64,000 bases of DNA from Kutzneria kofuensis (GTDB taxonomy: Bacteria; Actinomycetota; Actinomycetes; Mycobacteriales; Pseudonocardiaceae). The notes beneath the pieces were generated by a model, which saw only the letters and a list, made by a program, of their open reading frames with translations, was not told the origin of the DNA and ran no database searches. This document shows positions 5,158 through 20,758 of this stretch, piece after piece. Each line of letters opens with the position of its first letter. Within the stretch, counting starts at the first letter, position 1. Both the position numbers and the translations under genes were made by a program. The stretch covers positions 558,001-622,000 of the forward strand of contig NZ_JACHIR010000002.1 in NCBI RefSeq assembly GCF_014203355.1, in the 5' to 3' direction.

Positions 5158-6093
5158 GTGGGTGAACTACGGGTGGCGATGGTCCAGGGCGGCACCGACC
5201 GGCGGCTCGACGGCGTGGCCGACTACACCGGACACCTGGTGCCGGCGCTGCGCGATGTCGGCGTCGACGTCGTGGACCTGGCGTCGGATGTGGACATCGT
5301 GCACGTGCAACATGCACCCTTCGGATTTCCGGACGGTATGGGCGAGTCCCGGTTTCCGGCGCCGCTGGTGACGACGTTGCACGAGTACGACGAGACCCTG
5401 GTGCCGCTGAGCGACGCGTTGGTGGTGACGAACCCGTCGCACGCTCGGGAGCTTCGTCGCCGCACCGGGCGGTCGGCGTGGCACATCCCGCTGGCGCCGA
5501 ACGTGCCGGTGTGTGACGTGCCGGCGCGGCGGTTTGGTGGGACGACCGTGGTGTTCTTCGGGTTCGTGCATCCGGTCAAGGGGACCCGGTACCTGATCGA
5601 GGCCGTGCAGCGGCTTTCCGGGGTGCGGTTGGTGGTGGTCGGCGGGTTCGAGTCGCTGGCGATGCCGCCGGATGAGGCTGCGGCATATCGGGCCGAACTG
5701 GAGGCGCTGGCCGATGAACGGGTGGAGTTCACCGGGCACCTGCCGGTTCACGAGGTGTCGGCCGTGCTGCACGGGGCGGACGTGGCGGTGCTGCCGTTCA
5801 CGGCCGGCGTGACGACGAAGAGTGGAGCGTTGTTGACGGTGCTGGCGCACGGGTTGCCGACGGTGGTGACCGACGCCGGGGATCCGGAGTTGGTGGACGG
5901 TGAGACGGTCGTCGTCGCTTCTCCGGTGCGAAGTGCGGACGCGATCGTGACGGCGCTGCAGCGGGTGCTGGGGGATTCCGCGTTGCGTGAGCGGTTGTCC
6001 ATGCGGGGCAAGGCGATGGTGGCGGAGCGGACGTGGCCGGCGATAGCCCGGCGGCACCGGGAGTTGTACGAACAGGTGCTGCGGAATGGGTGA
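5158..6093 (+). CDS. Glycosyltransferase family 4 (GT-B fold)
   Basis: The GTG at 5158 gives a 311-residue protein; the frame is open further upstream but that part is antisense to the small acidic gene. The N-terminal Rossmann domain has LRVAMVQGGTD and an HVQHAPFG segment. The C-terminal domain has VVFFGFVHPVKGTRYL, FTGHLPVHEVSAVL, the ADVAVLPF sugar-nucleotide loop and LLTVLAHGLPTVVTD with the acidic DAGDPELV patch where GT4 enzymes normally carry an EX7E motif. It is a probable cytoplasmic retaining transferase. Its last 8 bases overlap the GT9 gene that follows. It opens the plus-strand side of the heptose locus. Confidence 0.8.
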   Translation: MGELRVAMVQGGTDRRLDGVADYTGHLVPALRDVGVDVVDLASDVDIVHVQHAPFGFPDGMGESRFPAPLVTTLHEYDETLVPLSDALVVTNPSHARELRRRTGRSAWHIPLAPNVPVCDVPARRFGGTTVVFFGFVHPVKGTRYLIEAVQRLSGVRLVVVGGFESLAMPPDEAAAYRAELEALADERVEFTGHLPVHEVSAVLHGADVAVLPFTAGVTTKSGALLTVLAHGLPTVVTDAGDPELVDGETVVVASPVRSADAIVTALQRVLGDSALRERLSMRGKAMVAERTWPAIARRHRELYEQVLRNG

Positions 6094-6985
6094 TTTCCGC
6101 CGGATTCTGGTGATCGAGTTGTTGGGCGGTATCGGCGATCTGCTGATGGTGCTGCCGGCGGTGCACGCGCTGGGCCGGCGGTACGTCGGCGCTCGGGTGA
6201 CCGTGCTGACCGAGGAGCCGGGGGCGGAGCTGTTACGGACAGATCCTTGGGTGGCGGAGGTTTCCACGTCCACCGACGTGCGCGGTGAGCTGGCGCGGGT
6301 GGATCCGGATCTGGTCGTGAGCACCTCGATGCACAGCGGGATTCCGGGGTTGGTGGCCGCGCACGGGTGCCGGGCGGTGACGGATCTCTGGCGGAACCCG
6401 CCGGCGGATCAACGGATTCCGGTGCGGTATCTGGAGATTCTCCGGGCAGAGGGGTTGATCGGGGAGACGGATCCGACGCCGAGGGTGCATCTGACCGCTG
6501 ACGAGTTGGAGCGGGGACGGCAGGTCGTCGGGGACGTCAAGCGGCCGGTGGTGCTGGTTCGGGACTCGGGGATGGCGGTGAAGCGGTGGCCCTACTTCGA
6601 CGAGCTGGCGGAGGTTGTGCCGGTGTTGGAGCTGCCGGCGATGTCGTTACGGGAGTTGGGGGCGTGCTTCGCTGCCGTGGCGTCGGTGGGTGGTGTGGTG
6701 GTCGGGGGCGACACCGGGCCGGTGCGGTTGGCGGAGGCGATGGGGGCGCGGGTGGTGGGGCTGTTCGGGCCGACGACGGTTGAACGTTATGGCTATGGGG
6801 ATGGGAATCTGCAGGGGTTGCCCGAGTGCCCGCACCGGCGGCCGTTGGCGATCACGGAGCAGCCGTGCTGGTGGAGTGCGCGGTGCCCGTTGGCCGAGGA
6901 CGGGCCGGCGTGCATGGCGGCGATCTCGGTGCGGGACGTGCTGGGCCGTTTGTCCGGGGGCGGGGCGGGTAGAGCTTCGGTCTGA
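6086..6985 (+). CDS. GT9 family (ADP-heptose:LPS heptosyltransferase-like) glycosyltransferase
   Basis: This 299-residue GT-B protein starts with ILVIELLGGIGDLLMVLPAVHAL, the GT9 N-terminal signature. It later shows the GGDTGPVRLAEAMGARVVGLFGP motif, which in WaaC/WaaF-type enzymes binds the ADP-heptose donor. The C-terminus has PCWWSARCPLAEDGPACM, a Cys cluster common in actinobacterial and cyanobacterial GT9 proteins. It overlaps the GT4 gene by 8 bases. ADP-heptose as donor is inferred from the HldE, GmhA and GmhB genes nearby; the acceptor is unknown. Confidence 0.82.
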   Translation: MGDFRRILVIELLGGIGDLLMVLPAVHALGRRYVGARVTVLTEEPGAELLRTDPWVAEVSTSTDVRGELARVDPDLVVSTSMHSGIPGLVAAHGCRAVTDLWRNPPADQRIPVRYLEILRAEGLIGETDPTPRVHLTADELERGRQVVGDVKRPVVLVRDSGMAVKRWPYFDELAEVVPVLELPAMSLRELGACFAAVASVGGVVVGGDTGPVRLAEAMGARVVGLFGPTTVERYGYGDGNLQGLPECPHRRPLAITEQPCWWSARCPLAEDGPACMAAISVRDVLGRLSGGGAGRASV

Positions 6986-7012
6986 GTCGTCGAGTCGTAG
7001 GAAGGAGATCTT

Positions 7013-7201
7013 GTGAGCGAGAAGCCGAATCCGATTCAGATGCAGAAGTTCCTGGGCGGGATGGAGTATCCGGCCAGCAAGGACCAGATCGTGGAGCACG
7101 CGAAGTCCAAGGGGGCCGATGAGGCCGTGCTGGACGGGCTGAAGGCGATTCCCGACCGGGAGTACAACGGACCCAACGCGGTGAGCCAGGCGTTCTCGTA
7201 G
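7013..7201 (+). CDS. DUF2795 domain protein
   Basis: This 62-residue protein covers one DUF2795 domain: the QKFLGGMEYPASKDQIVEHA segment, then a second half ending in NGPNAVSQAFS. A strong ribosome-binding site (AAGGAGAT) precedes the GTG start. The family is small, soluble and helical, common in actinobacteria and of unknown function. It lies 27 bases after the GT9 gene and may be co-transcribed with it. Hairpin element A begins 31 bases after its stop. Confidence 0.8.
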   Translation: MSEKPNPIQMQKFLGGMEYPASKDQIVEHAKSKGADEAVLDGLKAIPDREYNGPNAVSQAFS

Positions 7202-7232
7202 GGGGCTTGGCGGGTTCTTGCGTTGTGGGTCG

Positions 7233-7350
7233 CGTGGATTTTGTGTGGAGCCTCTGGACGATGGCCTCCGAGGGGCAATTCCGGGGCAGGCTCCGCCTGC
7301 CCCTCGCGCGGAGAGCTCAGGCCATCGTCCACCTCCACACAAAATCCACG
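7233..7350 (+). repeat. Long-hairpin repeat element, copy A
   Basis: This is a 118-base palindrome. The outer arms pair over 18 bp (CGTGGATTTTGTGTGGAG) and, after a 3-base asymmetry, over TGGACGATGGCCT. The inner part holds the perfect hairpin GGGGCAGGC-TCC-GCCTGCCCC and an alternative pairing CGAGGGGCA/TGCCCCTCG. Copy B is its reverse complement with about three differences in the ~108-base core. It lies just after the DUF2795 gene and could terminate transcription. Confidence 0.85.
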
Positions 7351-7405
7351 CTTAGGTTTTCGGTGTCGCCGCCGGGGTGGCGGTCGGCGCGATTATGCAT
7401 GAAAC

Positions 7406-7423
7406 AATCACCCGTTAGTGATT
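7406..7423. promoter_or_regulatory. Inverted repeat upstream of the HNH gene
   Basis: AATCAC and GTGATT arms are separated by six bases, 35 bases before the HNH start, in a locally AT-richer stretch. It is a candidate operator or part of the promoter. No LexA-type box fits here. Confidence 0.35.
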
Positions 7424-7457
7424 CGAGTTCGATCATGTGTGCGAGTATTCTGGGCAC

Positions 7458-8599
7458 ATGAAAGAACTCACCCGTGAACTAGAGAATCAGGAACCCAGCG
7501 GGGACCTGTTCGATGTGATCATGGGTGTGGACTGGGCGAGACTGGACACCGACCAGTTGGTGACGGTGTCCATTCTCGCCCGCAAACTGAAGTCCGCCTG
7601 CGAATGGGTCGAACTGGCCGCGCTGCGCCGGACCGAGGACCCCACCGAGCTCGCCATGGCCCTCACCGAACCTGAACAGACCGTGGCCCGGCGGAAAGAA
7701 GCCAGTGTGGTGCTGGAGACGCTGCCCCGCCTGGCCGAGCAGTTGCGGCGCGGCGAGTTGGACTTCCGCCGGCTCGACGCCGTGCGGGAACGGGTCCAGC
7801 ACCTGTCCCCCGAGATGGTGGCCGAGGTCGAGGATGCGCTGGTCGGTGTGGCCGCTGGGTTGAACCGGACCCAGCTGTGCCGCAAGACCACCGCCCTGGT
7901 CGCCCACGCCAACCCCGACGGCTACGAAACCCGCTGCCACAAGGCCACCAAGGACCGCCGAGTCGAGTTCTCCCCGCTACCGGACGGCATGGCCAACTGA
8001 CCTGGATCCTGCCCGCCACCGACGCCCACCTCGTGTTCCAACAACTCTGCAAAGACGCCCGATCCCTCCCCACCGACGACCGCACCACCGACCAGAAACG
8101 CTCCGATGCCCTGCTGGACCGCCTCCGGGGGACCAAGCGCGACTGGAACGTCCGCACCTTCGTCACCGTCTCCATGGAAACCCTGATGGGCCTGACCAAC
8201 GACCCCGGCCACCTCGCCGGCTACGGCCCCATCGCAGCCGACACCGCCCGCGAGCTGGCCATGCACGGCCCCTGGCGCGGCATCCTCCTCGACCAGTACC
8301 GCCACGCCACCGCCATCACCACCGACACCTACCGCCCCACCGCGTTGATGAAGGAATTCGCCCACGTGTCCGCCGGCGGCACCTGCACCGCCCCCGGCTG
8401 CGCCAGCCCCATCCAGGAATACGACCACATCACCCCCTGGCCACAGGGTACGACCGAGCCCGCCAATCTTCAGGGCCTCTGCACCTGGCACCACCACCGC
8501 AAACACGACAACTACACCGTGACCAGAGACCCGGACGGCACCTCACACTGGACCACCCCCACCGGCCGCCACTACACAACCCACCCCTTCGAATACTGA
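7458..8599 (+). pseudogene. DUF222/HNH endonuclease gene with frameshift (13E12-type)
   Basis: The 5' part (7458-8000) encodes the DUF222 domain from MKELTRELENQ to VEFSPLPDGMAN and then stops. The 3' part continues in another frame from QLTWILPATDAH to the end at 8599. Restoring one C at 7993-7994 (GCCAACTG to GCCCAACTG) joins them as GMAQLTWIL. The second part contains an HNH nuclease domain: CTAPGCASPIQEYDH, TTEPANLQGLCTWHHHRKHDN, with zinc-type Cys pairs and the catalytic His. The full product would be about 380 residues. This is either an inactivated gene, a programmed frameshift or a base-call error. Confidence 0.8.
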
Positions 8600-8666
8600 C
8601 CCCCGGTTCTTTGACAATTCCACAGCGAACCGACTACCCCCAACCCACCGCCCTCACCACAAGCTT

Positions 8667-8786
8667 GGGCCGATTTTGTGTGGAGGTGGACGATGGCCTA
8701 AGCTCTCCGCGCGAGGGGCAGGCGGAGCCTGCCCCGGAAATGCCCCTCGTAGGCCATCGTCCAGAGGCTCCACACAAAATCGGCCC
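8667..8786 (-). repeat. Long-hairpin repeat element, copy B
   Basis: This is a 120-base palindrome in opposite orientation to copy A. The core (GATTTTGTGTGGAG...CTCCACACAAAATC) matches copy A closely. The outermost stem bases differ: GGGCC/GGCCC here against CGTG/CACG in copy A, yet pair within each copy. It lies 47 bases beyond the 3' end of the minus-strand GT2 gene, so each copy follows one of the two convergent genes. Confidence 0.85.
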
Positions 8787-8833
8787 ACCCGGCCGGCCAC
8801 CACGAAACCCGCCCCCGCCGGCCAACACCACCC

Positions 8834-9628
8834 CTACCGCACCACATCCACCGCCTGCACGTCCCGCTCCGGCACCGTCGTCTCCGACTCCAGGTGCACC
8901 GCTCCACTCGGCAGAATCCCCGCGCCCCCGTATTTCGCCATCACCCGCCACTGGGCCGCGACGTCCTCCCCCGCATGTTCGGCCGGCAGTTCCCGCCAGA
9001 AGTCGAATCCGCCGCACTCGACCAGCTTCTCCCGGTCGAACAGCACGCATCCGGCGACCCAGGCGACCTTGTACGGCCGCCACTCGCCCGCCTTCATCCC
9101 GAGTTCCTCGACGAGATGCACGAGGTTCGCGGCGTTGTGCAGTGTCCACCGCCGCTCCTCCTCCGAACCGATCACCTCGGGTTCGACGCCGTCCACCCAC
9201 TCCTCGTACGGCTCCAGCTCCCCCGGCCGGCGATCATCCAGAAAGGACAGTCCCTGCATCGCGTTGCCGACGAAGCCGCATCGCAGCTCGGACATGGCGG
9301 TCCACAACCGGCTCAACGTCCCCGGTTCGAGCCACACGTCGTCGTCCAGGAACAGCACGTGCGACGCGGCGGCCAGGCCCAGCAGGAAGTCCCGATGCTC
9401 GGCCAATCCTCGCCTGGGCAGGTGCCGCACGAACTCCACCTCGACGCCCCGCCGCTCCAACTGCCGGGCCATCGCCCGCGCCGGCGCGGTGTCGAAGGAC
9501 GGCCGCTCGTCCGACTGGTCGCTCACGATCACCCGCCGCAACGGCCCCTCCTGCGCCGCCAGCCCGGCCAACGTCACACCCAACTCGACCGGCCGGTTCC
9601 TGGTCGGCACAAGCACTTCGACGCTCAC
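8834..9628 (-). CDS. Glycosyltransferase family 2 (GT-A fold)
   Basis: This 264-residue protein has the N-terminal GT2 signature VEVLVPTRNRPVELGVTLAG. The metal-binding acidic motif is VLFLDDDVWLEPG. The second half contains WVAGCVLFDREKLVECGGFD and AGEDVAAQWRV, matching the acceptor/base region. No membrane segment is seen, so it should act at the inner face of the membrane. The GTG start overlaps the HldE stop by 4 bases, so it belongs to the aldehyde dehydrogenase-HldE-GT2 operon. Donor and acceptor are unknown. Confidence 0.82.
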   Translation of the reverse strand: MSVEVLVPTRNRPVELGVTLAGLAAQEGPLRRVIVSDQSDERPSFDTAPARAMARQLERRGVEVEFVRHLPRRGLAEHRDFLLGLAAASHVLFLDDDVWLEPGTLSRLWTAMSELRCGFVGNAMQGLSFLDDRRPGELEPYEEWVDGVEPEVIGSEEERRWTLHNAANLVHLVEELGMKAGEWRPYKVAWVAGCVLFDREKLVECGGFDFWRELPAEHAGEDVAAQWRVMAKYGGAGILPSGAVHLESETTVPERDVQAVDVVR

Positions 9629-11079
9629 CGCGCTCCCACCCGGCCCCGAATCCGCTCGATCACCGCCGAAGTGGACCGATCCGGCAGGTAGTCCAGGATC
9701 CGCACCTCGCCGCCGCAGGACCGAACCACCGGCGTCTCCGGCAGCATCTCCGGCGTGTAGTCCCCGCCCTTCGCGTACACGTCCGGCCGCAGCCGCGAAA
9801 CCAGCCCCGCCGTCGTGTCGGTGCCGAACGTCGTCACGTGATCAACGCAGCTCAGTGCGGCCAGCACCGCCGCCCGGTCCGACGCCGAGTTCACCGGCCG
9901 CCCCGGCCCCTTCAACCGCCGCACGCTGCCGTCGTCGTTCACCGCCACCACGAGCACATCCCCCAGGCGCTTCGCCTGGTTCAAGTACGCGATGTGCCCC
10001 CGGTGCAACACGTCGAAGCACCCGTTGGTGAACACGATCCGCCGACCGGCCGCCCGGTGCGCCGCCACCGCCGCCGCAAGCTCGTCGTGATCGAGCAGCG
10101 CCGCCCGGAAGCCACCGAGCCGGGCCGTCAACTGCTCCGTCGTGCACACCGACGTCCCCGGCCGGCTCACGACCACATCGGCCGCCGCCTGCGCGAACTC
10201 GACACCGGCAGTCGCCGGCAGCCCACCCGCCAACGCCATCGTGAGCGCGGCAACGAACGTGTCCCCAGCCCCCGACGCTTGGCTCTCCGGCGCCGGCTGC
10301 GCCCATGTCCGATGCACCGGACCATCTGGAGGCAGCAGCATCGCGCCGTCCCGGTCCAAGGTGACGACCACCGCGCCGGCCCCCGTGGCGGCACGAAGAT
10401 CCGCGGCCCTGCGCTCCACCTCACCGGTCCGCGCACCCGACCACGCCGTACCGAGCAATGCCGCCGCCTCACTGGCGTTCGGCGTCACTACATCCGGCCG
10501 CACGTCCGCCCACGGCGCCAGGTCGTGCGCGTCGACGACCAACAGCGGGCCCCGCAACCGGGCGATCTCCGCCCGGACCTCCGCGGTCAGCGTCCCGGCA
10601 CCGTAGTCACACACCAGCACCGCATCGCACTGCGGCACCACGTCGCGCAGCACCCCGACAAGCGCCCGCCCGGTGCACGGCCGGACGTCGCCGCTGTCGC
10701 CCTCGTCGAACCGGGCCACCAGCTGATCACCGGCGACCACCCGACGCTTGGCCAGCGTCCGACGGCCGTGCTCCACCAACATCGCATCAGTGCGAACACC
10801 GGCGGCATCCAACTCACGCCGGATCCGCACACCATCCAGATCCGCCCCGGTCACGGCGACGATCACCGCCTCGGCCCCCAGCGCCGCCAAGTTCGCCGCG
10901 GTGTTGGCCGCCCCGCCCGGACGGTTCGTCGCCGACGTGATCTCCACGACCGGGGCCGGCGCCTCGCGGCACAGCCGCGTGCTGCCGCCGCACAGCCAAC
11001 CGTCCAGCATCGCGTCGCCGACCACCGCGATCCGGAGCCGGCGCTTCGCCAACTGCTCGGGCATGTCAACGGTCAGCAT
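9625..11079 (-). CDS. hldE: Bifunctional D-glycero-beta-D-manno-heptose-7-phosphate kinase / heptose-1-phosphate adenylyltransferase (first copy)
   Basis: The ATG at 11079 overlaps the aldehyde dehydrogenase stop and gives 484 residues, close to E. coli HldE. Residues 1-~320 are a PfkB-type kinase: RIAVVGDAMLDGWLCGG, PGGAANTAANLAALG and the SGAGDTF anion hole with Asp273 as likely base. Residues ~345-484 are the cytidylyltransferase-fold domain: TNGCFDVLHRGH (His359, His362), LGDVLVVAVNDD and RLKGPGRPVN. Together these steps convert heptose 7-phosphate (through the bisphosphate and GmhB) to ADP-heptose. A second HldE lies at 14158-15468. Confidence 0.9.
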   Translation of the reverse strand: MLTVDMPEQLAKRRLRIAVVGDAMLDGWLCGGSTRLCREAPAPVVEITSATNRPGGAANTAANLAALGAEAVIVAVTGADLDGVRIRRELDAAGVRTDAMLVEHGRRTLAKRRVVAGDQLVARFDEGDSGDVRPCTGRALVGVLRDVVPQCDAVLVCDYGAGTLTAEVRAEIARLRGPLLVVDAHDLAPWADVRPDVVTPNASEAAALLGTAWSGARTGEVERRAADLRAATGAGAVVVTLDRDGAMLLPPDGPVHRTWAQPAPESQASGAGDTFVAALTMALAGGLPATAGVEFAQAAADVVVSRPGTSVCTTEQLTARLGGFRAALLDHDELAAAVAAHRAAGRRIVFTNGCFDVLHRGHIAYLNQAKRLGDVLVVAVNDDGSVRRLKGPGRPVNSASDRAAVLAALSCVDHVTTFGTDTTAGLVSRLRPDVYAKGGDYTPEMLPETPVVRSCGGEVRILDYLPDRSTSAVIERIRGRVGAR

Positions 11080-12341
11080 GCCGCCTCCCAGTGCACAACC
11101 TTCATCGTCGTCATCTCGTCCAGCAGCTCCGGCCCGTACCCGAACCCGGTCCCGCTCGCGCCGCGCGGCTGCGCCGCCCCACCCGGCGCGCCGCCGAACA
11201 CCGCGTTGATCTTGACGGTCCCTACCGGCAGCTCCCGCCACGCTCGCTGCGCGTGATCCATGTCCCGGGTCAGCACGGTCGCCGCCAGCCCGTACGGGCC
11301 GCTACACGCCAATTCGAGCCCGTGATCGAAGCTGTCGACCACGCACACCGGCGCCACCGGGCCGAAGGTCTCCTCGCGCATCACCCGCATCTCCGGCGTG
11401 CAGTCGCTCAACACCGTGTTCGGGTAGTGCGACCCCGTCGCCACCAGCACCGTGCCGCCGGTGACCAGCGAAGCCCCGGCGCGCACCGCCTCCTGCACCT
11501 GGCCGTGCACGGAGTCCCGCGCCCTCACGTCGACGAGCGGCCCGGTCACGAACTCCTGCGCCTCGACCTGCAGCGCCTCCAGGAACGGCTTCGCCACGGC
11601 CTCGTGCACGAAGACCCGTTCCACGGACGTGCACAGCTGCCCGGCGTTGGTGAACGCTCCCAGCGCCGCCTGCGAAGCCGCCCAGGCCGGATCCACGCCC
11701 TCGTCGACCAGCAACGGATCGTTGCCGCCGTTCTCCAGCAGCAACTTCGCCGTGCTGTTCCGGGCGATCTCCCGACCGGTCGCGGTGCTGCCCACGTGTG
11801 CGACCACGTCGACCCCCGGTTGCGAAGCCAGCGCCTCGCCGACCCAGCCGTCACCGGGCAGCCACTGCAGGACGTGCTCCGGGAACAGGTCGGCGAGCAG
11901 CTTGGTCAGCAGCTCCCCCACGTGCGGCGACCGCTCGCTGGGCTTGTGCACCACGGCGTTCCCCACCGCCAGCGCCGCCCCGATGAGCCCGCACGCGATC
12001 GCCACCGGGTCGTTCCACGGCGTGATCGCCGCGACCACGCCGCGCGGCTCCGGCACCATCAGGTCCGTCGCCGACCACGCGCCGTGCAACACGCGCCCGC
12101 GGTGCAGCGGCCCCAGCTCGGCGTACTGGTCGAGCGTGCCCGCCGCGGCCAGGACACCGCCGCGCGCCTCGTCGATCAGCCGGCCGGTGTCGGCGTTGTT
12201 GGCGGCGGCCAGCTCGTCGGCCGCCGACCGCAGCCTGGCGGCCGCGGCCGCCAGGGCGGCTCCTCGTTCGGCGGCCGGGGTCCTGGCCCAGCCGCGCTGC
12301 GCCGCCCGGGCAGCGGCGACGACCTGTTCGACTTCGCTCAT
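11073..12341 (-). CDS. Aldehyde dehydrogenase family protein
   Basis: This 422-residue NAD(P)-dependent aldehyde dehydrogenase has the active-site Cys237 in TNAGQLCTS, the general base Glu203 in LLLENGGNDPLLV and the cofactor segment HVGSTATGREIA. PWNDPVAIACGLIGAAL and VVHKPSERSP match the usual NAD-fold. It is shorter than typical members (~480), mainly at the N-terminus. The ATG at 12341 is chosen because the frame upstream is antisense to the GT9 gene. It heads an operon with HldE (7-base overlap) and GT2. The substrate is unknown; a sugar aldehyde is possible by context. Confidence 0.83.
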   Translation of the reverse strand: MSEVEQVVAAARAAQRGWARTPAAERGAALAAAAARLRSAADELAAANNADTGRLIDEARGGVLAAAGTLDQYAELGPLHRGRVLHGAWSATDLMVPEPRGVVAAITPWNDPVAIACGLIGAALAVGNAVVHKPSERSPHVGELLTKLLADLFPEHVLQWLPGDGWVGEALASQPGVDVVAHVGSTATGREIARNSTAKLLLENGGNDPLLVDEGVDPAWAASQAALGAFTNAGQLCTSVERVFVHEAVAKPFLEALQVEAQEFVTGPLVDVRARDSVHGQVQEAVRAGASLVTGGTVLVATGSHYPNTVLSDCTPEMRVMREETFGPVAPVCVVDSFDHGLELACSGPYGLAATVLTRDMDHAQRAWRELPVGTVKINAVFGGAPGGAAQPRGASGTGFGYGPELLDEMTTMKVVHWEAAC

Positions 12342-12395
12342 GCCCTCGCGGCTACCCGGTGATTGCCGGCTTAAGCGGCCGGGCATACCGATGTC

Positions 12396-13538
12396 ATGCG
12401 CCCGTTCGACGATGTGCACAGGATCGCGATACTCCGCGGCGGCGGCCTCGGCGACCTGATCTTCGTGCTGCCCGCCGTGCACGCCGTCCGGAACGCCTAT
12501 CCCGGGGCGGAGATCGTGCTGCTCGGCACCGGCCAGCACGCCCGGCTGCTCGAGGGCCGGCCGAGTCCGATCGACCGGGTGATGCGCCTGCCGGCGGCCA
12601 AGGGCGTGTACGAGCCGCTGCCCGGTGTGCACGACGATCCGCCCGCCCTGCACCGGTTCTTCCAAGCGGCGCTGGCGGAGCGCTTCGATCTGGCGTTTCA
12701 GCTGCACGGCGGCGGTCGGTGGTCGAACCCGTTCGTACGGAGCCTCGGCGCCCGGCACACCGTCGGCACGCGGACCCCGGACGCGGCCCCGCTCGCCCGC
12801 TGGCTGCCGTACCGGTACTACCAGCACGAAATCCTGCGCTGGCTGGAGGTCGTGGCCCTGGCCGGGGCGCCGCAGGTGACGCTGGACGCCGGACTGGCCG
12901 TGACGGACCACGACCTGACCGAGGCCGCCGAGGCGTTGTCCGGCCTGCCCGGCCGCCTGGTGACGCTGCATCCCGGCGCGACGGATCCGCGACGGCGTTG
13001 GCCCGCCGAGAAGTACGCCGAGGTGGCCGTGCACGCCGTCAGCCAGGGCCACGGCGTCGCGGTGGTCGGCAACGGCGCGGAATCCGCGCTGGTGCAGGAG
13101 ATCGTGGACCGGGCCCGGAGCCGTTCGCGGTCGCCGATGAGCATTCGCGGGCTGGCGGGCGTGCTGGACCTGAACGGGCTGGTCGGCGTCCTGGCCCGGA
13201 GCGACGTCGTGGTGGCCAACGACAGCGGGCCCCGGCACATGGCCGAGGCGATCGGCACGCCGACGGTGAGCGTCTTCTGGTGCGGCAACATGATCAACGC
13301 CGGGCCGTTCTGGCGGGGCGTGCACCGCCCACACATCTCGTGGATGGTGCACTGCCCCGTCTGCGGCCGCTGGCTGACCGACCAGAACGTGCCGGACTGC
13401 GGTCACCGCACGCCGTGGGTGGCCGACGTGCCGGTCGACGGCGTCCTCGCCGACGTGGACGAGATCATGGCGGCCACGATCCCTCCTCAGCGTGGGTCAC
13501 GACCAGTTCCCGAAGCTCGCAGTTCGCCGGCTGGCTGA
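12396..13538 (+). CDS. GT9 family glycosyltransferase (heptosyltransferase-like)
   Basis: This 380-residue GT-B protein starts with RIAILRGGGLGDLIFVLPAVHAV. It has LVTLHPGATDPRRRWPAEKYAEVA and the donor motif VVANDSGPRHMAEAIGTPTVSVFWCG. The C-terminal Cys/His set HCPVCGRW...PDCGHRTPW could bind a metal. It starts 54 bases from the divergent aldehyde dehydrogenase gene. Its last 74 bases overlap the convergent SDR gene, so its final ~25 residues may not be conserved. It is the second of four GT9 genes here. Confidence 0.82.
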   Translation: MRPFDDVHRIAILRGGGLGDLIFVLPAVHAVRNAYPGAEIVLLGTGQHARLLEGRPSPIDRVMRLPAAKGVYEPLPGVHDDPPALHRFFQAALAERFDLAFQLHGGGRWSNPFVRSLGARHTVGTRTPDAAPLARWLPYRYYQHEILRWLEVVALAGAPQVTLDAGLAVTDHDLTEAAEALSGLPGRLVTLHPGATDPRRRWPAEKYAEVAVHAVSQGHGVAVVGNGAESALVQEIVDRARSRSRSPMSIRGLAGVLDLNGLVGVLARSDVVVANDSGPRHMAEAIGTPTVSVFWCGNMINAGPFWRGVHRPHISWMVHCPVCGRWLTDQNVPDCGHRTPWVADVPVDGVLADVDEIMAATIPPQRGSRPVPEARSSPAG

Positions 13539-14145
13539 GCGCGAACACCACGGCCGCGGCCACGTCGTCCGGGTCGTTGAGCCGGGCGTCGGACGGCGGC
13601 TTGTACTGCTCCTCGCGGTCGTCGAAGAACTTCGTCCGCATGCCGCCGGGCACCAGCAGCGTCACGCCGACCTTCCCGGTCAGCTCGGCGGTCAGCGCCC
13701 GGGTGAAGCCGACGACACCGAACTTCGAGGCGCAGTAGGCGGTCGCGTCGCTGACCGCGCTGAAGCCCAGCGTCGACGACACCGTCACGATCCGGCCCCG
13801 CGCCTCGATCAAGTACGGCAGCGCGGCCCGCACAACGGCCGCCGTGCCGAGCAGATTCACCGTCACGACACGATCCCACTCGGCACCGTCTATATCGGAC
13901 AGTGTGCCGCAGCGGTCGGTGCCGGCGGCGGTCACCACACCGCTCAGGCCACCGTTGCGCTCGGCGATCTCACGCACGGCCCGCTCGGCAGCACGGGTGT
14001 CGGACAGGTCCACCTGCACGAAGTCGTCGCACTCCGCCGGCTCGACCACGTCCAGCACGGCCGCCTTGCCGCCGGCCTTGCGCACCGCCCGCACGACGGC
14101 CGCGCCCAGGCCGGACGCTCCGCCGGTGACAGCGATGGTTTCCAC
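13465..14145 (-). CDS. Short-chain dehydrogenase/reductase
   Basis: This 226-residue classical SDR has the cofactor motif TGGASGLGAAVV, the VTAAGTDRCG segment (NAG-type position), the catalytic Ser in VSSTLGFSA, and YCASK with catalytic Tyr and Lys. PGGMRTKFF follows as usual. It is too short and of the wrong subtype to be the extended-SDR epimerase HldD. It is the last gene of the seven-gene minus-strand heptose operon, 12 bases after HldE. The substrate is not known. Confidence 0.82.
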   Translation of the reverse strand: METIAVTGGASGLGAAVVRAVRKAGGKAAVLDVVEPAECDDFVQVDLSDTRAAERAVREIAERNGGLSGVVTAAGTDRCGTLSDIDGAEWDRVVTVNLLGTAAVVRAALPYLIEARGRIVTVSSTLGFSAVSDATAYCASKFGVVGFTRALTAELTGKVGVTLLVPGGMRTKFFDDREEQYKPPSDARLNDPDDVAAAVVFALSQPANCELRELVVTHAEEGSWPP

Positions 14146-14157
14146 TGATTTCTCCCC

Positions 14158-15468
14158 TCACTTCGCGTGCGACAACAGGTCCACGAGCCGCGTGGTGGAG
14201 CGGCCCGCGTGGTAGGGCACGACAACGCTTTCGCCGCCCCATTCCCGCACGACCTCGGACTCCGGCAGCGTCTCCGCCGAGTAGTCGCCGCCCTTCACCC
14301 AGACGTCCGGCCGCAGTTCGCGCAGCACATCGCAGGGCGTGTCGCCGTCGAAGATCACGACGGCGTCGACGCAGTCGAGCGAACGCAGCATCTCGGCCCG
14401 GTCGCGCTGGTTGTTGACCGGTCGCGACGGGCCCTTCAGCCGCCGCACCGATTCGTCGGAATTCAGGCATACCACGAGGAAATCGCCGAGGCGGCGGGCC
14501 GCGTGCAGGGTGCGGGTGTGTCCGGTGTGGAGGATGTCGAAGCAGCCGCCGGTGGCGACGACCTTGCCGCCACGGGCCCGGACCGCCGCGATGGAACGTT
14601 GTGCGTCGGTGGAACCGCCGGCAGAGACGTACTCCGAGGCGGCAACGACGCCGGCGGCGACGGCGACGTCCAGTGCATCGCCCCGCATCAGGCCGGCGGC
14701 GACCGAGGACGCGAACCGGTCGCCCGCGCCACAGGGGTCGAGCACCGGAACATGTGGCGCCGGCACGACAATCGGCGCTTCCCCGCCATTGTGCAGCAAC
14801 GCGCCGCGGCTGCCCAACGTCACGGCGACGGCCCGCGCCCGCAGCCGCGAGCGCAGCGCCTCCGCCGCCAGTCGAGCGCCCTCCAACCCCTTCGCCGCAA
14901 CACCGCTGGCGGTCAACGCCTCCGACAGGTTCGGCGTGACCAACCGGACGCCCGGCACGGGCTCCGGACCGCGCGGATGCGGGTCCCACACAACGGGAAC
15001 CCGCTGTGCCGCAGTAGAAAGCACCTTGCGCAGCTCCGGATCGGCGGCGATTCCCCGACCGTAGTCGGACACCAGCACGGCATCGGCGGACCGCACCGCG
15101 TCGAGCATCTCGGCCGTGACCTCCGGCGGCCGTTCGCTGCCGCCGCGATCGACCCGGGCCAGGGAATGGCCGTCCGCCCGCAGCCGGGTCTTCACGACGG
15201 TCGCCCCGAAGGATCGACCGGCGACCACGCGAACATCGGACAGGCACGACCGCAGCACGGCGGCGTCCTCGTCGTCCGACAACGCCGTCACCAATGCCGT
15301 CGACACGCCGTCGCCAGCGGCCAGAAAGGCGGCCAGACCGGCGCCACCGGCCCGGGGCCGTTCGGTCGCCATGTCCAGCACGGGCGCCGGGCCGTCGGGG
15401 CACACGCGGCTCACCGAACCGACGATGTCCACGTCCAACAGCACGTCGCCGACCACGACCAGATTCAC
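14158..15468 (-). CDS. hldE: Bifunctional heptose-7-phosphate kinase / heptose-1-phosphate adenylyltransferase (second copy)
   Basis: The protein has 436 residues from the GTG at 15468, which overlaps the GmhA stop by 4 bases. The kinase domain shows [29 protein letters not shown] and DPCGAGDRF with Asp250. The nucleotidyltransferase domain shows ATGGCFDILHTGH (His314, His317), LGDFLVVCLNSDESVRRLKG and WVKGGDY. Both catalytic sets are intact, so this is a second full HldE, shorter than the first by trimmed loops and termini. It belongs to the operon with GmhA and GmhB and is thus the better candidate for the housekeeping ADP-heptose route of this locus. Confidence 0.9.
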   Translation of the reverse strand: MNLVVVGDVLLDVDIVGSVSRVCPDGPAPVLDMATERPRAGGAGLAAFLAAGDGVSTALVTALSDDEDAAVLRSCLSDVRVVAGRSFGATVVKTRLRADGHSLARVDRGGSERPPEVTAEMLDAVRSADAVLVSDYGRGIAADPELRKVLSTAAQRVPVVWDPHPRGPEPVPGVRLVTPNLSEALTASGVAAKGLEGARLAAEALRSRLRARAVAVTLGSRGALLHNGGEAPIVVPAPHVPVLDPCGAGDRFASSVAAGLMRGDALDVAVAAGVVAASEYVSAGGSTDAQRSIAAVRARGGKVVATGGCFDILHTGHTRTLHAARRLGDFLVVCLNSDESVRRLKGPSRPVNNQRDRAEMLRSLDCVDAVVIFDGDTPCDVLRELRPDVWVKGGDYSAETLPESEVVREWGGESVVVPYHAGRSTTRLVDLLSHAK

Positions 15469-16040
15469 GAGGCCCGCCTCTCCAACAACGCCAACGCCTG
15501 CTCGAACGCGCCACACAACACGTGCACGGCAACGAGGTGCGCCTCCTGGACGGTCGCCGGCTCGGCCGGCACGCACAGCGCATCGTCCACAATGGACGCC
15601 AGTGGGTTCGGGGCACGGCCGGTCATCGCCCAGCACACCGCCCCGGCGCTACGGGCCGCCTCGGCGGCGCGCACGACGTTCGGGCTCTTGCCGCTGGTGG
15701 ACAGCAGCATCACGATGTCCCCCGGCCGCGCATGGGCCGCCACCTGGCGGGCGAACACCTCGTCGTAGCCGTAGTCGTTGCCGATCGCGGTCATCGCGGA
15801 CGTGTCGGCGTGCAGCGCGATCGCCGAGAAGGCCGGCCGCTCGCCGTCGAAACGTCCCACCAGCTCGGCGGTCAGGTGCTGGGCCTCCGCGGCCGAGCCG
15901 CCGTTGCCCGCGGCGAGTAGTCGACCGCCGGATCGCAGCGTGGCGGCCAGTCTCTGGCCCCAGCTGTCCAGCACCGACGACTGCGCGCAGAGCCAGTCCA
16001 GCGCCTCGTGCAGGTCGTCGACGTGTCTGACCGAGTTCAC
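15465..16040 (-). CDS. gmhA: Phosphoheptose isomerase (SIS domain)
   Basis: The GTG at 16040 (4-base overlap with the upstream GT4 stop) gives 191 residues, the length of E. coli GmhA. The SIS motifs are clear: [39 protein letters not shown], and [17 protein letters not shown]. The C-terminal [12 protein letters not shown] carries the conserved His. The enzyme converts sedoheptulose 7-phosphate to D-glycero-D-manno-heptose 7-phosphate, the first step to ADP-heptose. The [22 protein letters not shown] stretch (interrupted here as two motifs) separates GmhA from other SIS proteins. Confidence 0.9.
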
Positions 16041-17251
16041 GACGAGACCTCCAGGGCTGTGCCGGCCGGCACGACGCCGGCGCGGTGGTAGATCTGCACG
16101 GTGTCGGCGGCGATCCGGTCCCAGGAGTAGCGGGCTTGCGCCCGGTCGCGACCGGCGGCGCCGTAAGCCTGGCGCAGCGTGGGATCTTCCAGCAGCGGGC
16201 GCAGCACTCGGGCCAGCGCGGCCGGAGAACGCGGCGGGACATGCCGTCCGGTGACGCCGTCGACGACGGTGTCGGTGAGGCCGCCGGTGGCGGCGGCCAC
16301 CACCGGGACGCCGCACGCCATCGCCTCCAGCGGCACGATGCCGAACGGCTCGTACCAGGGCGTGCAGACGACGACGTCGGCCGACCGCAGCAGCGCCGGC
16401 ATCTCCTCGCGGGACATCTGGCCGAGCAGGGTGACCCGGTCACTGACGCCGACGTGGTTGGCCACCTGGCGCAGTCGCCGAGCCTCCTCGTCCGCGGCCA
16501 GCCCGGACGGCTGCGGGCCGCCGGCGATCACGAGCTCGGTGTGCGGCAGCCGGGCCAGCGCCTCGATGGCGATGTCGAACCCCTTGCGCTGCACCAACCG
16601 CCCCACGGCGAGCAGCCGGTGGCGGTCGCCGCGCTCGGCGACGGGCCCCTCCGGACTGAACTGCCGCAGGTCCACGCCGCACGGCACCACGGAGATCCGC
16701 GACCGCGGCACGCCCATTCGGACCAGCTCGAACACCTCGTCGGAGCAGGTCGCGGCCACCCGGGAGACGGTCCGTCCGACCAGGCGCTCCAGGCGTAGTC
16801 GCCCGGCCGGGCTGGTGTCCTGGCTGCCCTGGTGACGGCGCTTGACCGAGCCGAGCGCGTGGAAGGTCTGCACCACCGGCACGTCCAGCTTGTCCGCACC
16901 CAGCACGGAGGCCAGGCCGGACATCCAGAAGTGCGCGTGCACGATGTCGGGCGGCTGATGACGCCACTCGCGGGCCAGCGTGTCGGCGAATTCGCCCATG
17001 TGCGGGAGCATTTCGTCCTTGGGTAGCGGGCCCGGCGGACCGGCCGGCACGTGCACGACACTGAAGCCTCGGGCCGTGTCGACCCGCCTGGGCAGGTCCG
17101 GGTCGGCCTGGCGGGTGTAGACGACGACCTCGTGGCCCTGCCTGGCCAGCGCCGACGACAACTCGGCCACGTGCAGGTTCTGCCCGCCGCAGTCGACCTC
17201 ACCGAGCGCGGCCAGCGGACTGGCGTGCTCGGAGACCATCGAGATCCTCAT
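16037..17251 (-). CDS. Glycosyltransferase family 4 (MshA/sucrose-synthase-like)
   Basis: This 404-residue GT-B protein has [21 protein letters not shown] at the start, as in D-inositol-3-phosphate glycosyltransferases. [11 protein letters not shown] follows. The C-terminal domain has [20 protein letters not shown], and the EX7E motif lies in [14 protein letters not shown]. It is unlikely to be the mycothiol enzyme itself because it sits in a sugar operon with GmhA, HldE and GT9 genes. It starts 2 bases after the upstream gene's stop. Confidence 0.82.
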
Positions 17252-17253
17252 GA

Positions 17254-18201
17254 CTACCTCCCACGTTCCACGGTCTCGGTCAGCAGCCAGTCCCAGTCCC
17301 GCAGGAAGGCCGCCAACCCGTATCTCGCCAGCGCCGCCTGCCTGGCCTGTTTGCCCAGCTCGGCCGCCAGCTCCGGGGCGTTGATCAGCTCCCGTGCCGT
17401 GTCGGCCAGCACCTCCACCTGGGTGGAGACCACGCCGGCGTCGGGCGGCACGGCCTCGATCGCCTCGGTCGCCGCGAACACCACCACCGGCATGCCCAGG
17501 TGCATCGCCTCGATGAGGGACAGCCCCAGTGAAGTCCAGCGCAACGGGTGCACGTACACCCGCCGGCGGGCCAGCTCGGTGTGCAGTTCGTCGGTCCACA
17601 GGTCGCCGACCGGGTGCACGCCCGGGAGGTCGAGCCGATCGACGTGAATGCCGAACACGTCGATCGGGGCGAACCTCGGCAGCAGGTCGGTGCCGGTGAT
17701 CCTGGCCCGGCGCACCGGTTCGTTGATCACGGCCGCGGCCCGCGGCAGTTCACCGGTGTAGCGCTCGCCGGGATCCGGGACGCCGTGCTCGATCACGGTG
17801 GTCGGCGCCCGGCCCGAATCCCACATCACCTCGTTGAAGTGCGTGACGTGGACCAGCCGGATGTCGTCCCGGTCGGCCAGCGGATGCGGCTGCCCCTTCG
17901 GGGTGTTGTGCTCCACGTAGACCATCGGCGCCCTGCCGCGCACCCACTTCGGCACCTCGTCGATCTCTTCCGGCCGTTGCAGCACGACAACGTCCACATC
18001 GGACGCCTCGGTGATCTCGACGGCGTTGGGCCAGTCGCGGCCGCACTTGCCGCCGCCCCACGGCCCGGTCGGGATCAGGTATTCGTGCCGGCCGGCGACG
18101 AAGGCGGACATCCACGCCGCATGCACGTGCCACACCAGGACACGGAGCCGGCGGTCCGGCGCGGCCCAGGTGGGCGGTGGCAGCACAGCGCGTTCACTCA
18201 T
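17254..18201 (-). CDS. Glycosyltransferase family 4-like protein
   Basis: This 315-residue GT-B type protein has [16 protein letters not shown] at the N-terminus, [13 protein letters not shown], and an acceptor-side segment [14 protein letters not shown]. The C-terminal domain contains [30 protein letters not shown], where the glutamate of SLIEAMH sits at the expected donor position. The start ATG overlaps the GT9 stop by 4 bases. The EHNTP segment and length are those of a small actinobacterial family often seen beside GT9 genes; the function is not known. Confidence 0.78.
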
Positions 18202-19220
18202 GCACGTACCCCCTGCATCGCTTCGACCGCGTCGGCAACCTCGGCGGCGGTGACGTCGTTCAGGCACGGGTGGCCGGCGAGCGGGCAGATCCGGGCCCGA
18301 CTGTCGCGGCAGGGCGAGTCCTGGTCACCCAGCAGCACGTACGGCACGCGGTACGGCGCCCACCGCCGCGACGGGACGACCGGGGAGAACAGCGACACGA
18401 CGGGCGTTCCGACCGCCGCGGCCAGATGCGCGGGGCCGGTGTTCCCGACCACCAGGGCATCCGCGCCGGCGATCGTCGCCGCCAGTTGTGAGAACGTCGT
18501 CCGGCCGCCGAGATCGAGTCCACAGTGGCCGGCGACACGAGCCGTCAGGGCACGCTCGTCGGGGCTACCCGTGACCACTACACGGATGCCGCGGCGGGCC
18601 AGTTCGATCACGGTTTCCGCGCACCGCTCCGGCGACCAGGCCCGTGACGGAACCGAGGCGCCGGGATGCAGCACCACGTACGGGTCGTTGCCGACGAGAC
18701 GGGGACGCTTCGGCAGCGCACGCACGGCGAGCCGGCCGTCGTCGGCGGGTCCGAGCGCGAAGCCGGCCGCCCTGGCGACGGTGAGGGCGCGTTCGGGCTC
18801 CGGCAGGTCCTCGTCGACCTCGATGCCGGGCCGCAGGCGGATGTCCAGCAGGGAACCCGGATAGTCCTCCGACACGGCCGCGATCCACGGCACGCCGGCC
18901 ATCCGCAGCACCAGCGCCATCGGCAGCGGCGACTGGTGGTACGAGGTGAGGATCAACGCCGTGTCGAACCTGCGGCGCTGCAAGGTCTTGCGCACGGACT
19001 CGATGTCACGCCGGTCCACATCGGACGGCGTGGGGTCGATCCACGGGCAGCGCCACACCAGCACGTCGCTGACCCCGGGCAGCATCCTCGCCGCCTGCTT
19101 CCCTCGGGGTCCACACAGGAACGTGACGTCGTTGCCCTGGGCCGCGGCGCGCACCGCCGGGCCCGACACGAGCACGTCGCCCTCGCTGTCGAGGCGGACG
19201 ACCAGCACCTGACGCCTCAT
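18198..19220 (-). CDS. GT9 family glycosyltransferase (heptosyltransferase-like)
   Basis: This 340-residue GT-B protein begins VLVVRLDSEGDVLVSGPAVRA. It has VVLHPGASVPSRAWSPERCAE, then LVVGNTGPAHLAAAVGTPVVSLFSP, the ADP-heptose-binding motif of GT9. The C-terminus shows RICPLAGHPCLNDV with Cys residues like the other copies. It overlaps GmhB upstream and the GT4-like gene downstream by 4 bases each. Its place between GmhB and GmhA makes it the best candidate for a true heptosyltransferase. Confidence 0.84.
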   Translation of the reverse strand: MRRQVLVVRLDSEGDVLVSGPAVRAAAQGNDVTFLCGPRGKQAARMLPGVSDVLVWRCPWIDPTPSDVDRRDIESVRKTLQRRRFDTALILTSYHQSPLPMALVLRMAGVPWIAAVSEDYPGSLLDIRLRPGIEVDEDLPEPERALTVARAAGFALGPADDGRLAVRALPKRPRLVGNDPYVVLHPGASVPSRAWSPERCAETVIELARRGIRVVVTGSPDERALTARVAGHCGLDLGGRTTFSQLAATIAGADALVVGNTGPAHLAAAVGTPVVSLFSPVVPSRRWAPYRVPYVLLGDQDSPCRDSRARICPLAGHPCLNDVTAAEVADAVEAMQGVRA

Positions 19221-19741
19221 CGCAGCACCTTTTCCACGGCGGCAAGGAGATTCGGGCTCACCTCGGGAGCGGCGTCGACCTCCTCGCGGCGCGTCTCGGC
19301 CGTGGGCACGAGAATCGTCCGCGCGCCGGCGGCGAGGCCGGCGTCGACGTCGCTGCCGATGTCGCCGATCAGGGTGATGCGGTCCGTCGGCACGCCCAGG
19401 GATGCGGACGCCGCCAGCACCATGCCCGGCTCCGGCTTGCGGCACGGGCAGCCGTCGTTCGCGCCGTGCGGGCATATCTGCCAGGTATCAAATGGGCCGA
19501 GCAGCCGCTCGACCCGTTGGTTCACCGCCCGCACGTCGTCCAGCGTCAGCTTTCCTCGGGCCACACCGGACTGGTTCGTCACCACGCCGACCGCGATCCC
19601 CCGGTCCCGCAACAGGTCCAGGGCTCGACGCGCACCCGGCACCGGGCGTACCCTGCCCGGGTCGCCGTTGTAGGGCACGTCGACGATCAGGGTGCCGTCC
19701 CGGTCGAACAGCACCGCGTCGCAGCCATGGCTCGCAGTCAC
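19217..19741 (-). CDS. gmhB: D-glycero-beta-D-manno-heptose-1,7-bisphosphate 7-phosphatase (HAD-IIIA)
   Basis: This 174-residue HAD phosphatase has the nucleophile motif LFDRDGTLI, a TNQSGVARG loop and the motif GDIGSDVDAG. The insertion ICPHGANDGCPCRKP contains the CxH...CxC zinc loop that marks GmhB. It removes the 7-phosphate of heptose 1,7-bisphosphate between the two HldE reactions. The GTG at 19741 fits family length; the frame opens 48 bases further upstream. It is first in the seven-gene operon. Confidence 0.88.
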   Translation of the reverse strand: MTASHGCDAVLFDRDGTLIVDVPYNGDPGRVRPVPGARRALDLLRDRGIAVGVVTNQSGVARGKLTLDDVRAVNQRVERLLGPFDTWQICPHGANDGCPCRKPEPGMVLAASASLGVPTDRITLIGDIGSDVDAGLAAGARTILVPTAETRREEVDAAPEVSPNLLAAVEKVLR

Positions 19742-19861
19742 GGGGGACGAGATTTCCGCTGCGAGTAGGAGTAAACGCGGCCCGAGCAACTACTACTCAC
19801 CGTGACCGCGCACCCGTCGGAGGTCTGTTTGCCGACGCCGCAACGGGGTAGCCCGACCCGG
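19742..19861. promoter_or_regulatory. Divergent promoter region of the heptose operon
   Basis: The region separates gmhB from the plus-strand GT9 gene. It contains a 10-bp inverted repeat with one mismatch: GAGTAGGAGT (19763-19772) and ACTACTACTC (19789-19798). It could be an operator controlling both directions. Confidence 0.4.
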
Positions 19862-20758
19862 GTGTCCACTGTGCTTGCCTTGCGGGCCTTGAATCTCGGC
19901 GATCTCCTCGTGGCGGTGCCGGCGCTGCGCGCGCTGCGTAGGCACTGGCCGGAACACCGGCTGCAGCTGGCGACCTCCGCCTGGCTGGAGCCGATCGTTC
20001 GGCTCGGCGGCGGCATCGACGAGCTCGTGCCGGCCAACGGCCTCCATCCGCTCGACGGGGTGGAGAATCCCGATGTCGCCGTCAACCTGCACGGGGCCGG
20101 ACCGCAGAGCAATGAGGTTCTGGACGCCCTCGGGCCGCGGCACCGCATCGGGCACCGTGGTCATGGCTGGGACGGACCGATCTGGACAGACGGCCTGCAC
20201 GAACGGCAGCGCTGGTGCCGGATGCTCACCGCGCACGGCATCGACTGCGACGCGGACGACCTCCTGCTCCGGCGGCCGGACATCGGCAGCGTCGCCCCCG
20301 GCGCCGTGGTCGTCCATCCCGGCGCCGGTTACGGCAGCCGGCGCTGGCCGGTCGAGCGGTACGCCCAGGTGGCGGCCAAGATCGACCGCCGGGTCGTGGT
20401 GACCGGCACCGAGCGGGAACGCGACCTCGCGCTGGCCGTCGGCGTGCCCGATGAGGACGTCCTCGCCGGTCGCCTGGACCTGACCGAGCTGGCCGCGCTG
20501 ATCGCCGAGGCGCACCTGGTGATTTCCGCCGACACGGGCGTCGCTCACCTTTCCTACGCCTACCGGACGCCGTCCGTCGTGCTGTTCGGTCCGGCTCCGG
20601 TCGAGCAATGGGGCCCGCCCGCCGACGGTCCACACCGCTGCCTCACGGTGGCGTCGGCTCGGCGCGGTGATCCTTTCACCGACGATCCCGATCCCGCGCT
20701 GCTCGGCGTGTCCGTCGACGATGTGCTGGCGGGTGTCGCGGCGCTGACCAGCGGGTAG
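19862..20758 (+). CDS. GT9 family glycosyltransferase (heptosyltransferase-like)
   Basis: From the GTG at 19862 the protein has 298 residues and begins STVLALRALNLGDLLVAVPALRAL, the usual GT9 start. A GTG at 19802 would add 20 residues without similarity; neither has a clear ribosome-binding site. It has VVVHPGAGYGSRRWPVERYA and the donor motif ISADTGVAHLSYAYRTPSVVLFGP. It is divergent from the gmhB operon and is the fourth GT9 gene. The 38-base gap to the next gene allows co-transcription with the Holin-X gene. Confidence 0.8.
   Translation: MSTVLALRALNLGDLLVAVPALRALRRHWPEHRLQLATSAWLEPIVRLGGGIDELVPANGLHPLDGVENPDVAVNLHGAGPQSNEVLDALGPRHRIGHRGHGWDGPIWTDGLHERQRWCRMLTAHGIDCDADDLLLRRPDIGSVAPGAVVVHPGAGYGSRRWPVERYAQVAAKIDRRVVVTGTERERDLALAVGVPDEDVLAGRLDLTELAALIAEAHLVISADTGVAHLSYAYRTPSVVLFGPAPVEQWGPPADGPHRCLTVASARRGDPFTDDPDPALLGVSVDDVLAGVAALTSG

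Follow-up and report, generated by a model that had tools for sequence, protein, structure and literature searches.

The cwg operon of Streptomyces coelicolor has reportedly been known as a cell-envelope-stress target since a paper by Hong in 2002. It is described as a vancomycin-induced sigma-E operon of 12 genes (SCO6179–6190) for 'cell wall glycan synthesis', with a published promoter sequence; the same source calls SCO6178 a putative deacetylase (PMC6767563). Concerning single genes, cwgH is described as a phosphoheptose isomerase, cwgI as a bifunctional synthase/transferase and several others as transferases (PMC5839063), SCO6185 as a glycosyltransferase (PMC4630627) and cwgA as a gene targeted by SigE or activated by salt (PMC3902916, PMC13011467). 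We analysed a stretch of 64,000 nucleotides (the window) of the 10.4 Mb genome of Kutzneria kofuensis, a member of the Pseudonocardiaceae, which covers positions 558001–622000 of contig NZ_JACHIR010000002.1 and holds, at window positions 5158–20758, a locus of heptose-pathway and glycosyltransferase (GT) genes (Table 1). Judged from its sequence, this locus is probably a relative of the actinobacterial cwg operon, enlarged in the Pseudonocardiaceae, which has the heptose core in common with cwg and not the cwg end genes, and its product would be a heptose-containing envelope glycan.

Of 392 genomes of one genus, which we infer to be Streptomyces, ten carry the published cwg promoter with at most three mismatches, and one of these (G564) carries it exactly; the backward control gave no match. 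Behind the promoter in G564, Pfam and tblastn assign twelve genes: an epimerase, a carbamoyltransferase, a GT2 enzyme, GmhB, GT9-3, GT4c, GT4b, GmhA, HldE2, GT9-4 and two further GT2 enzymes. The six window genes for GmhB, GT9-3, GT4c, GT4b, GmhA and HldE2 match cwg genes 4–9 in order and direction, as seen in G564, G444 and G154, and GT9-4 is the counterpart of cwg gene 10, found in the window at the other end. The G564 counterparts from GmhB to GT9-4 are 50–66% identical to the window proteins. Seven counterpart genes are present in G444 (two of them each split into two tblastn hits), and in G154, where the promoter has two mismatches, the divergent gene encodes a polysaccharide deacetylase, as SCO6178. 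Compared with cwg, the window adds a short-chain dehydrogenase (SDR) behind HldE2, a group of four genes (HldE1, an aldehyde dehydrogenase (ALDH), GT9-2 and GT2) and the pair GT4a/GT9-1.

Isomerase, kinase, phosphatase and nucleotidyltransferase are all encoded in the locus by family and motif, most of them scoring below heptose-specific cut-offs, and the presence of a complete pathway to a nucleoside diphosphate (NDP)-heptose is well supported by sequence. Domains were called with Pfam and NCBIfam, and gene starts were chosen by us from the translations. The only heptose-specific cut-off reached is that of TIGR02199, by the nucleotidyltransferase domains of both HldE proteins; genome-wide, TIGR02199 matches only these two and PF01075 only the four GT9 enzymes of the locus. 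GmhB also passed general HAD-IIIA models, and HldE1 matches the HldA structures 4e84 and 5x9q. GmhA contains QH..AE and QE.H, GmhB contains DRDGT and a zinc motif, and the GT9 enzymes contain (D/N)(T/S)G..(H/R), with R in GT9-1 and H in the other three. We take these motifs, and those of the SDR, the ALDH and both HldE, to be catalytic. Among the relatives, the loose pattern QE.H is found in 44 of 80 GmhA proteins and DRDGT in 60 of 77 GmhB proteins. The functional case is made by domains, motifs and gene context taken together. An earlier sequence-only reading had listed GmhA, GmhB and HldE with four GT9, three GT4 and one GT2 enzymes, and all of these were found; it had named the classes rightly and overlooked the second HldE, the ALDH, the SDR and a frame-broken DUF222/HNH gene. 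Its complete adenosine diphosphate (ADP)-heptose locus stands as an NDP-heptose pathway; the nucleotide was an assumption, given an R before ST(T/S) in both HldE proteins.

Table 1. Features of the locus and its immediate neighbours in the window.
Feature	Predicted product or placing	Positions	Strand	Match or motif
GT4a	GT4 glycosyltransferase, accessory	5158–6093	+	PF13692 72 bits
GT9-1	Accessory	6086–6985	+	PF01075 38 bits; GIGDL and DTGPVR motifs
DUF222/HNH gene	Frame-broken, outside the pathway	7437–8599	+	PF02720 at 7437–8000; rest in other frame 7877–8599
GT2	GT2 glycosyltransferase, module B	8834–9628	-	PF00535 42 bits
HldE1	Heptose-7-phosphate kinase / heptose-1-phosphate nucleotidyltransferase	9625–11079	-	TIGR02199 191.8 bits (cut-off 181.5)
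ALDH	Aldehyde dehydrogenase, module B	11073–12341	-	PF00171 355.8 bits; GQLC
GT9-2	Module B	12396–13538	+	PF01075 88 bits
SDR	Short-chain dehydrogenase, behind HldE2	13465–14145	-	PF00106 129.5 bits; YCASK
HldE2	Second HldE-type enzyme, cwgI counterpart	14158–15468	-	TIGR02199 192.7 bits (cut-off 181.5)
GmhA	Sedoheptulose-7-phosphate isomerase, cwgH counterpart	15465–16043	-	PF13580 88 bits; PDB 2xbl
GT4b	MshA-like GT4, cwgG counterpart	16037–17251	-	PF00534 140 bits; TIGR03449 250 bits (cut-off 462.5)
GT4c	GT4, cwgF counterpart by position	17254–18201	-	PF00534 45 bits
GT9-3	cwgE counterpart by position	18198–19220	-	PF01075 85 bits
GmhB	Heptose-bisphosphate 7-phosphatase, cwgD counterpart by position	19217–19741 (start possibly 19789)	-	NF006506 112 bits; PDB 4pnh; zinc motif
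GT9-4	cwgJ counterpart, divergent beside GmhB	19802–20758 (start possibly 19862)	+	PF01075 69 bits
Holin-X-like	Small membrane protein, neighbour only	20797–21189	+	PF07332 103.6 bits

The window combines module A (GmhB-GT9-3-GT4c-GT4b-GmhA-HldE2-SDR plus GT9-4), module B (GT9-2 and ALDH-HldE1-GT2) and the accessory pair GT4a/GT9-1. By their coordinates, each gene of the minus-strand series from GmhB to HldE2 either runs a few bases into the next or lies almost directly beside it (the overlap of GmhA and HldE2, which are read in different frames, is 4 bases), and the SDR starts 12 bases behind HldE2 on the same strand. ALDH, HldE1 and GT2 form a second closely packed minus-strand group, while GT9-2, GT9-4 and the GT4a/GT9-1 pair sit on the plus strand. 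The HNH gene was ruled out as a part of the locus because its reading frame is broken, and the holin-X gene because it is present in only one of the 80 named loci described below.

In the proposed route, the kinase half of HldE1 or HldE2 would form the 1,7-bisphosphate, GmhB would take off the 7-phosphate and the nucleotidyltransferase half of HldE would yield the NDP-heptose. The heptose should remain in the D-glycero form because no HldD was found: TIGR02197 gave 21 matches, the best at 110.7 bits against a cut-off of 274.6 (14 of 14 control genomes match, two of them above the cut-off). The GT9 enzymes would then add heptose to a cytosolic or inner-leaflet acceptor and the GT4 and GT2 enzymes other sugars, giving an envelope oligosaccharide. 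The sequence shows the enzyme families, the motifs, the synteny and the resemblance to the operon that follows the cwg promoter; sugar, nucleotide and product location are inferred.

Conservation was followed in 80 named loci, the best 80 of at least 547 HldE2 matches; the loci were thus chosen by HldE2 and some are cut at contig ends. Gene order was taken from tblastn of the window proteins (above 80 bits in the named loci, the holin excepted, and above 60 bits in a further set). GmhA and HldE2 are labelled in all 80, GT4b and SDR in 79, GT4c and GT9-3 in 78 and GmhB in 77; less frequent are ALDH (59), GT9-4 (58), HldE1 (52), GT9-2 (45), GT2 (27) and holin-X (1). The unbroken order GmhB-GT9-3-GT4c-GT4b-GmhA-HldE2-SDR is found in 69 of the 80 and GT4b-GmhA-HldE2 in 76. 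The 12-gene order of the window, with orientation, is kept in 21 and that of 11 genes (without GT2) in 32. One of the 21 belongs to the Pseudonocardiaceae (L038); the rest are Microbacteriaceae, Micrococcaceae, Brevibacteriaceae or unplaced, according to record titles. Carriers overall, by titles and tree labels, belong to the Pseudonocardiaceae, Micrococcaceae, Microbacteriaceae, Brevibacteriaceae, Micromonosporaceae and Nocardioidaceae, with one Nocardia.

An even sampling of the class gave 296 genomes from 106 genera; HldE2 alignment matches at E <= 1e-40, a threshold that also lets in HldE1-type and partial matches, were found in 75 of these genomes and 38 of these genera. Among 41 genomes (our own and relatives), 31 match the query at E <= 0.001, in many cases through a weak kinase hit; this query was an HldE2 frame that was too long, with its first 56 residues inside gmhA, and the match in the same-genus genome G005 (residues 1–55) is not HldE2. 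Ten plasmid records match HldE2, and in none does a match at a single place span more than 80% of the query. The sequence-only reading had thought heptose genes surprising in an actinomycete, and this is not supported: many Actinomycetota carry the set in conserved synteny, and its core matches a published operon. The synteny across actinobacterial genomes that it had proposed to look for is borne out by the orders above.

Several observations weigh against a cwg-type heptose glycan. Concerning the enzymes, GmhA, GmhB, all GT9 and the kinase and whole-protein models of HldE remain below the heptose-specific NCBIfam cut-offs (GmhA: NF010546, 171 bits, cut-off 276; GmhB: NF006506, cut-off 178; HldE1: NF008454 for the whole protein, 355.8 bits, cut-off 521; kinase-domain model, cut-off 345: HldE1 215 and HldE2 134 bits). 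Concerning distribution, GT4a and GT9-1 are labelled in none of the 80 named loci (GT9-1 is present in G003, and both in G010 and G073), and four of the six same-genus genomes have no comparable HldE. G003, of the same genus, carries the locus; G005 has a decayed copy (L029) with collinear flanks and no HldE, in which the region matching about 5187–15492, most of GT4b, GmhB and GT9-4 are missing and GT9-3, GT4c, a piece of GT4b and GmhA are left. The loss in part of the genus indicates that the product is dispensable. A stretch 72% similar to the window DUF222/HNH gene lies near this copy (L029:14162–15530). Concerning cwg itself, the comparison was made through the G564 operon behind the promoter, with the letters cwgA–L assigned by position; about 0.75 kb of G564 between HldE2 and GT9-4 has no assigned gene, and G461 (L170), one of four promoter-bearing genomes examined, keeps the promoter with only GT4b and a piece of GmhB in the fetched stretch. 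The cwgD gene has been described as a 'putative dehydratase' (PMC5839063) where we find GmhB. Unlike cwg, the window has neither an epimerase nor a carbamoyltransferase of the cwg kind among the frames scanned next to its core, and its GT9-4 is divergent beside GmhB, whereas that of G564, G444 and G154 stands behind HldE2. One hand-written sigma-E-type pattern had no match near six window starts; the pattern does recover the cwg promoter in L168, but it also matches the window at 141 places (both strands, overlaps counted apart). The cwg product is itself described as a predicted cell wall glycan (PMC6767563), and one source, which dealt with the L-glycero form and applied criteria of its own, reported ADP-linked L-glycero-manno-heptose from Gammaproteobacteria only; this speaks against heptose in this phylum (PMC7725333).

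Patchy occurrence in the genus would also suit a specialised-metabolite cluster, in which NDP-heptose enters a soluble glycoside or antibiotic, like septacidin, spicamycin or hygromycin B. Septacidins and spicamycins are described as using ADP-heptose chemistry (PMC10948575), septacidin is named for Streptomyces fimbriatus (PMC11461863), the conserved block has no transporter or polymerase, and a family represented by a carbamoyltransferase lies near 15 of 97 relatives. Such a cluster is nevertheless improbable here: the conserved genes include no scaffold-forming enzyme, four GT9, three GT4 and one GT2 enzymes suggest an oligosaccharide, gene order is kept across several families, more as in envelope metabolism, and the related cwg is described as a sigma-E, vancomycin-induced operon (PMC6767563). 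Of the surface glycan, glycolipid or natural product offered by the sequence-only reading, an envelope glycan is the most likely and a natural product is less favoured.

The two HldE proteins belong to different types. From 117 loci plus the window, 116 HldE2 and 61 HldE1 matches were collected, of which 111 and 60 were long enough for motif counts. The kinase motif of the window is GGAAN in HldE1 and GGAGL in HldE2; as text patterns, GGA[AG]N is found in 57 of 60 HldE1 and GGA[AG]L in 108 of 111 HldE2, and HldA of B. cenocepacia has GGAAN at the aligned position. GAGD is kept in 59 of 60 HldE1 and in all 111 HldE2. A tree of 58 rows from 36 chosen sources, with no Gram-negative row, splits the two types across a single branch (support 100/100). 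The fetched stretch behind the cwg promoter in G564 has HldE2 as its only HldE, with GmhA and GmhB, and therefore HldE2 should be able to serve the whole pathway. That the enzymes, and HldE2 in particular, act on some other sugar phosphate is unlikely, and somewhat more so than the metabolite cluster; Leu in place of the Asn of HldE1 and HldA, and the low kinase-domain score of HldE2, would favour it, but GAGD is invariant, HldA of B. cenocepacia is the nearest PDB fold of the predicted HldE2 model (top seven rows; mean predicted local distance difference test score 85), and HldE2 stands with GmhA in all 80 named loci and with GmhB in 77. Moreover, in 3 of 117 loci (L105, L144, L150) a single open frame contains the motifs of both GmhA and HldE2, as expected for tridomain NDP-heptose synthetases, for which these three are candidates.

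Use of cytidine or uridine diphosphate (CDP/UDP) has been linked to the STTR5 motif, (F/L)XXGRSTT (PMC11573728). An R before an ST(T/S/A)-like motif is found in 95 of 111 HldE2, in 20 of 59 HldE1 and in both window proteins; compared with the published motif, the window HldE2 has Y at the first place, and HldE1 has Y first, D for G, and STS. A broader nucleotide use (CDP/UDP) of the window enzymes is only suggested.

The recurrent modules A and B are seen in 17 fetched stretches of relatives, together in the window and G003 and on different contigs in G007 and G015. Two separate glycans may accordingly be made, a refinement compatible with the envelope-glycan reading that we regard as possible, with the odds somewhat against it: module A, with HldE2, would make the cwg-type glycan, and module B, with HldE1, the ALDH and its own GT9, an independent heptoside, their adjacency being historical. 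The single branch between the HldE types, genomes that carry both types on different contigs, and G016, where module B is found with GmhB, agree with this; the same interleaved module order in the 21 (12 genes) or 32 (11 genes) named loci, and the lack of a GmhA of its own in the window module B, argue for one unit. In G010, HldE1 adjoins a 288-residue HldE2 match. More doubtful is a further extension, by which HldE1 and HldE2 would be non-redundant and make two different activated heptoses (differing in nucleotide, anomer or later oxidation), the SDR and ALDH would modify one of them, e.g. to a heptosuronic acid, and the locus would build a charged, not previously described heptoglycan for the Gram-positive cell wall, common to Pseudonocardiaceae, Micrococcaceae, Microbacteriaceae and Brevibacteriaceae.

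Concerning export, no ABC (ATP-binding cassette) exporter, flippase or initiating transferase was found in the 50 window frames (60 to 61935) given to Pfam, which cover part of the window; the same absence had been stated by the sequence-only reading for the whole window and holds for these frames. Transporters elsewhere in the window are a major facilitator superfamily protein (24185–25627), an ABC solute-binding protein (28502–29839) and an EamA transporter (61045–61935); an open frame of 3076 amino acids lies at 45022–54252. Among 97 relatives, the commonest unlabelled neighbour families are, by their representatives, a sigma factor (39 loci), an epimerase (25), an SDR (25), a carbamoyltransferase (15), a polyketide-cyclase-like protein (14), a UDP-sugar dehydrogenase (12), a LysR protein (11) and another epimerase (9); two families have no Pfam match. 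Ten of the eleven commonest include no exporter, flippase or initiating transferase, and the twelve G564 genes are likewise all enzymes, with no exporter among them. As far as annotated, the relatives have no neighbouring exporter either, and its absence is no peculiarity of the window. In 39 of the 97 relatives, the sigma-70-family sigma factor gene (representative L086:3365–4279) is found on the same strand some 7 kb upstream, where it may encode a regulator of the locus.

The core enzymes look cytosolic and GT9-3 weakly matches TIGR04414 (22 bits), which would fit cytosolic protein O-heptosylation, like that by Aah/TibC on autotransporters. This is very improbable: the score is far under the cut-off of 200, no autotransporter is found among the scanned window frames, and several glycosyltransferases imply a longer glycan. 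The envelope glycan retains our preference. The locus is real, coherent and in good part explained, and the glycan itself gives the remaining interest. An NDP-heptose pathway with heptosyltransferase-type enzymes at the core of cwg, in an order kept across several actinobacterial families, makes the question of the cwg product directly testable. Gram-positive producers of NDP-heptoses would matter for immune agonism too, as NDP-heptoses are described as immune agonists (PMC11461863, PMC11573728).

Within the phylum, a Frankia gene called heptosyltransferase is described as raised under salt (PMC5563000), a GT9 is mentioned in a Cryobacterium (PMC12113805) and a gmhD deletion in Rhodococcus (PMC12786566); a search of the open-licence literature gave no paper that reports heptose in the wall of an actinobacterium. 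Two GmhA-like SIS genes stand beside NiFe-hydrogenase large and small subunit genes (L171:6519–10832; G000:C3, about 418.5–422.8 kb), and with this adjacency the pair is not supported as a second heptose locus.

Compared with the Gram-negative ADP-heptose pathway of the lipopolysaccharide (LPS) inner core, the locus has the GmhA, HldE, GmhB and GT9 families in common. An LPS-like envelope was ruled out, as LpxC (PF03331) and the Kdo-transferase N-domain (PF04413) have no match in the genome (4 and 3 of 14 control genomes match). Recent transfer of a Gram-negative LPS cluster is not favoured, since the rows of both HldE types cluster for the most part according to actinobacterial family; in a tree with no Gram-negative rows, this leaves room for an older transfer. 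The tridomain NDP-heptose synthetases named for actinobacteria (PMC11573728) join isomerase, kinase and nucleotidyltransferase as a unit, whereas the window has separate genes, those of GmhA and HldE2 overlapping. The septacidin and hygromycin B clusters are described as also deriving a heptose from sedoheptulose-7-phosphate in actinobacteria (PMC10948575); the locus differs from them, as judged by families, in that no nucleoside or aminocyclitol scaffold genes were noticed among its families.

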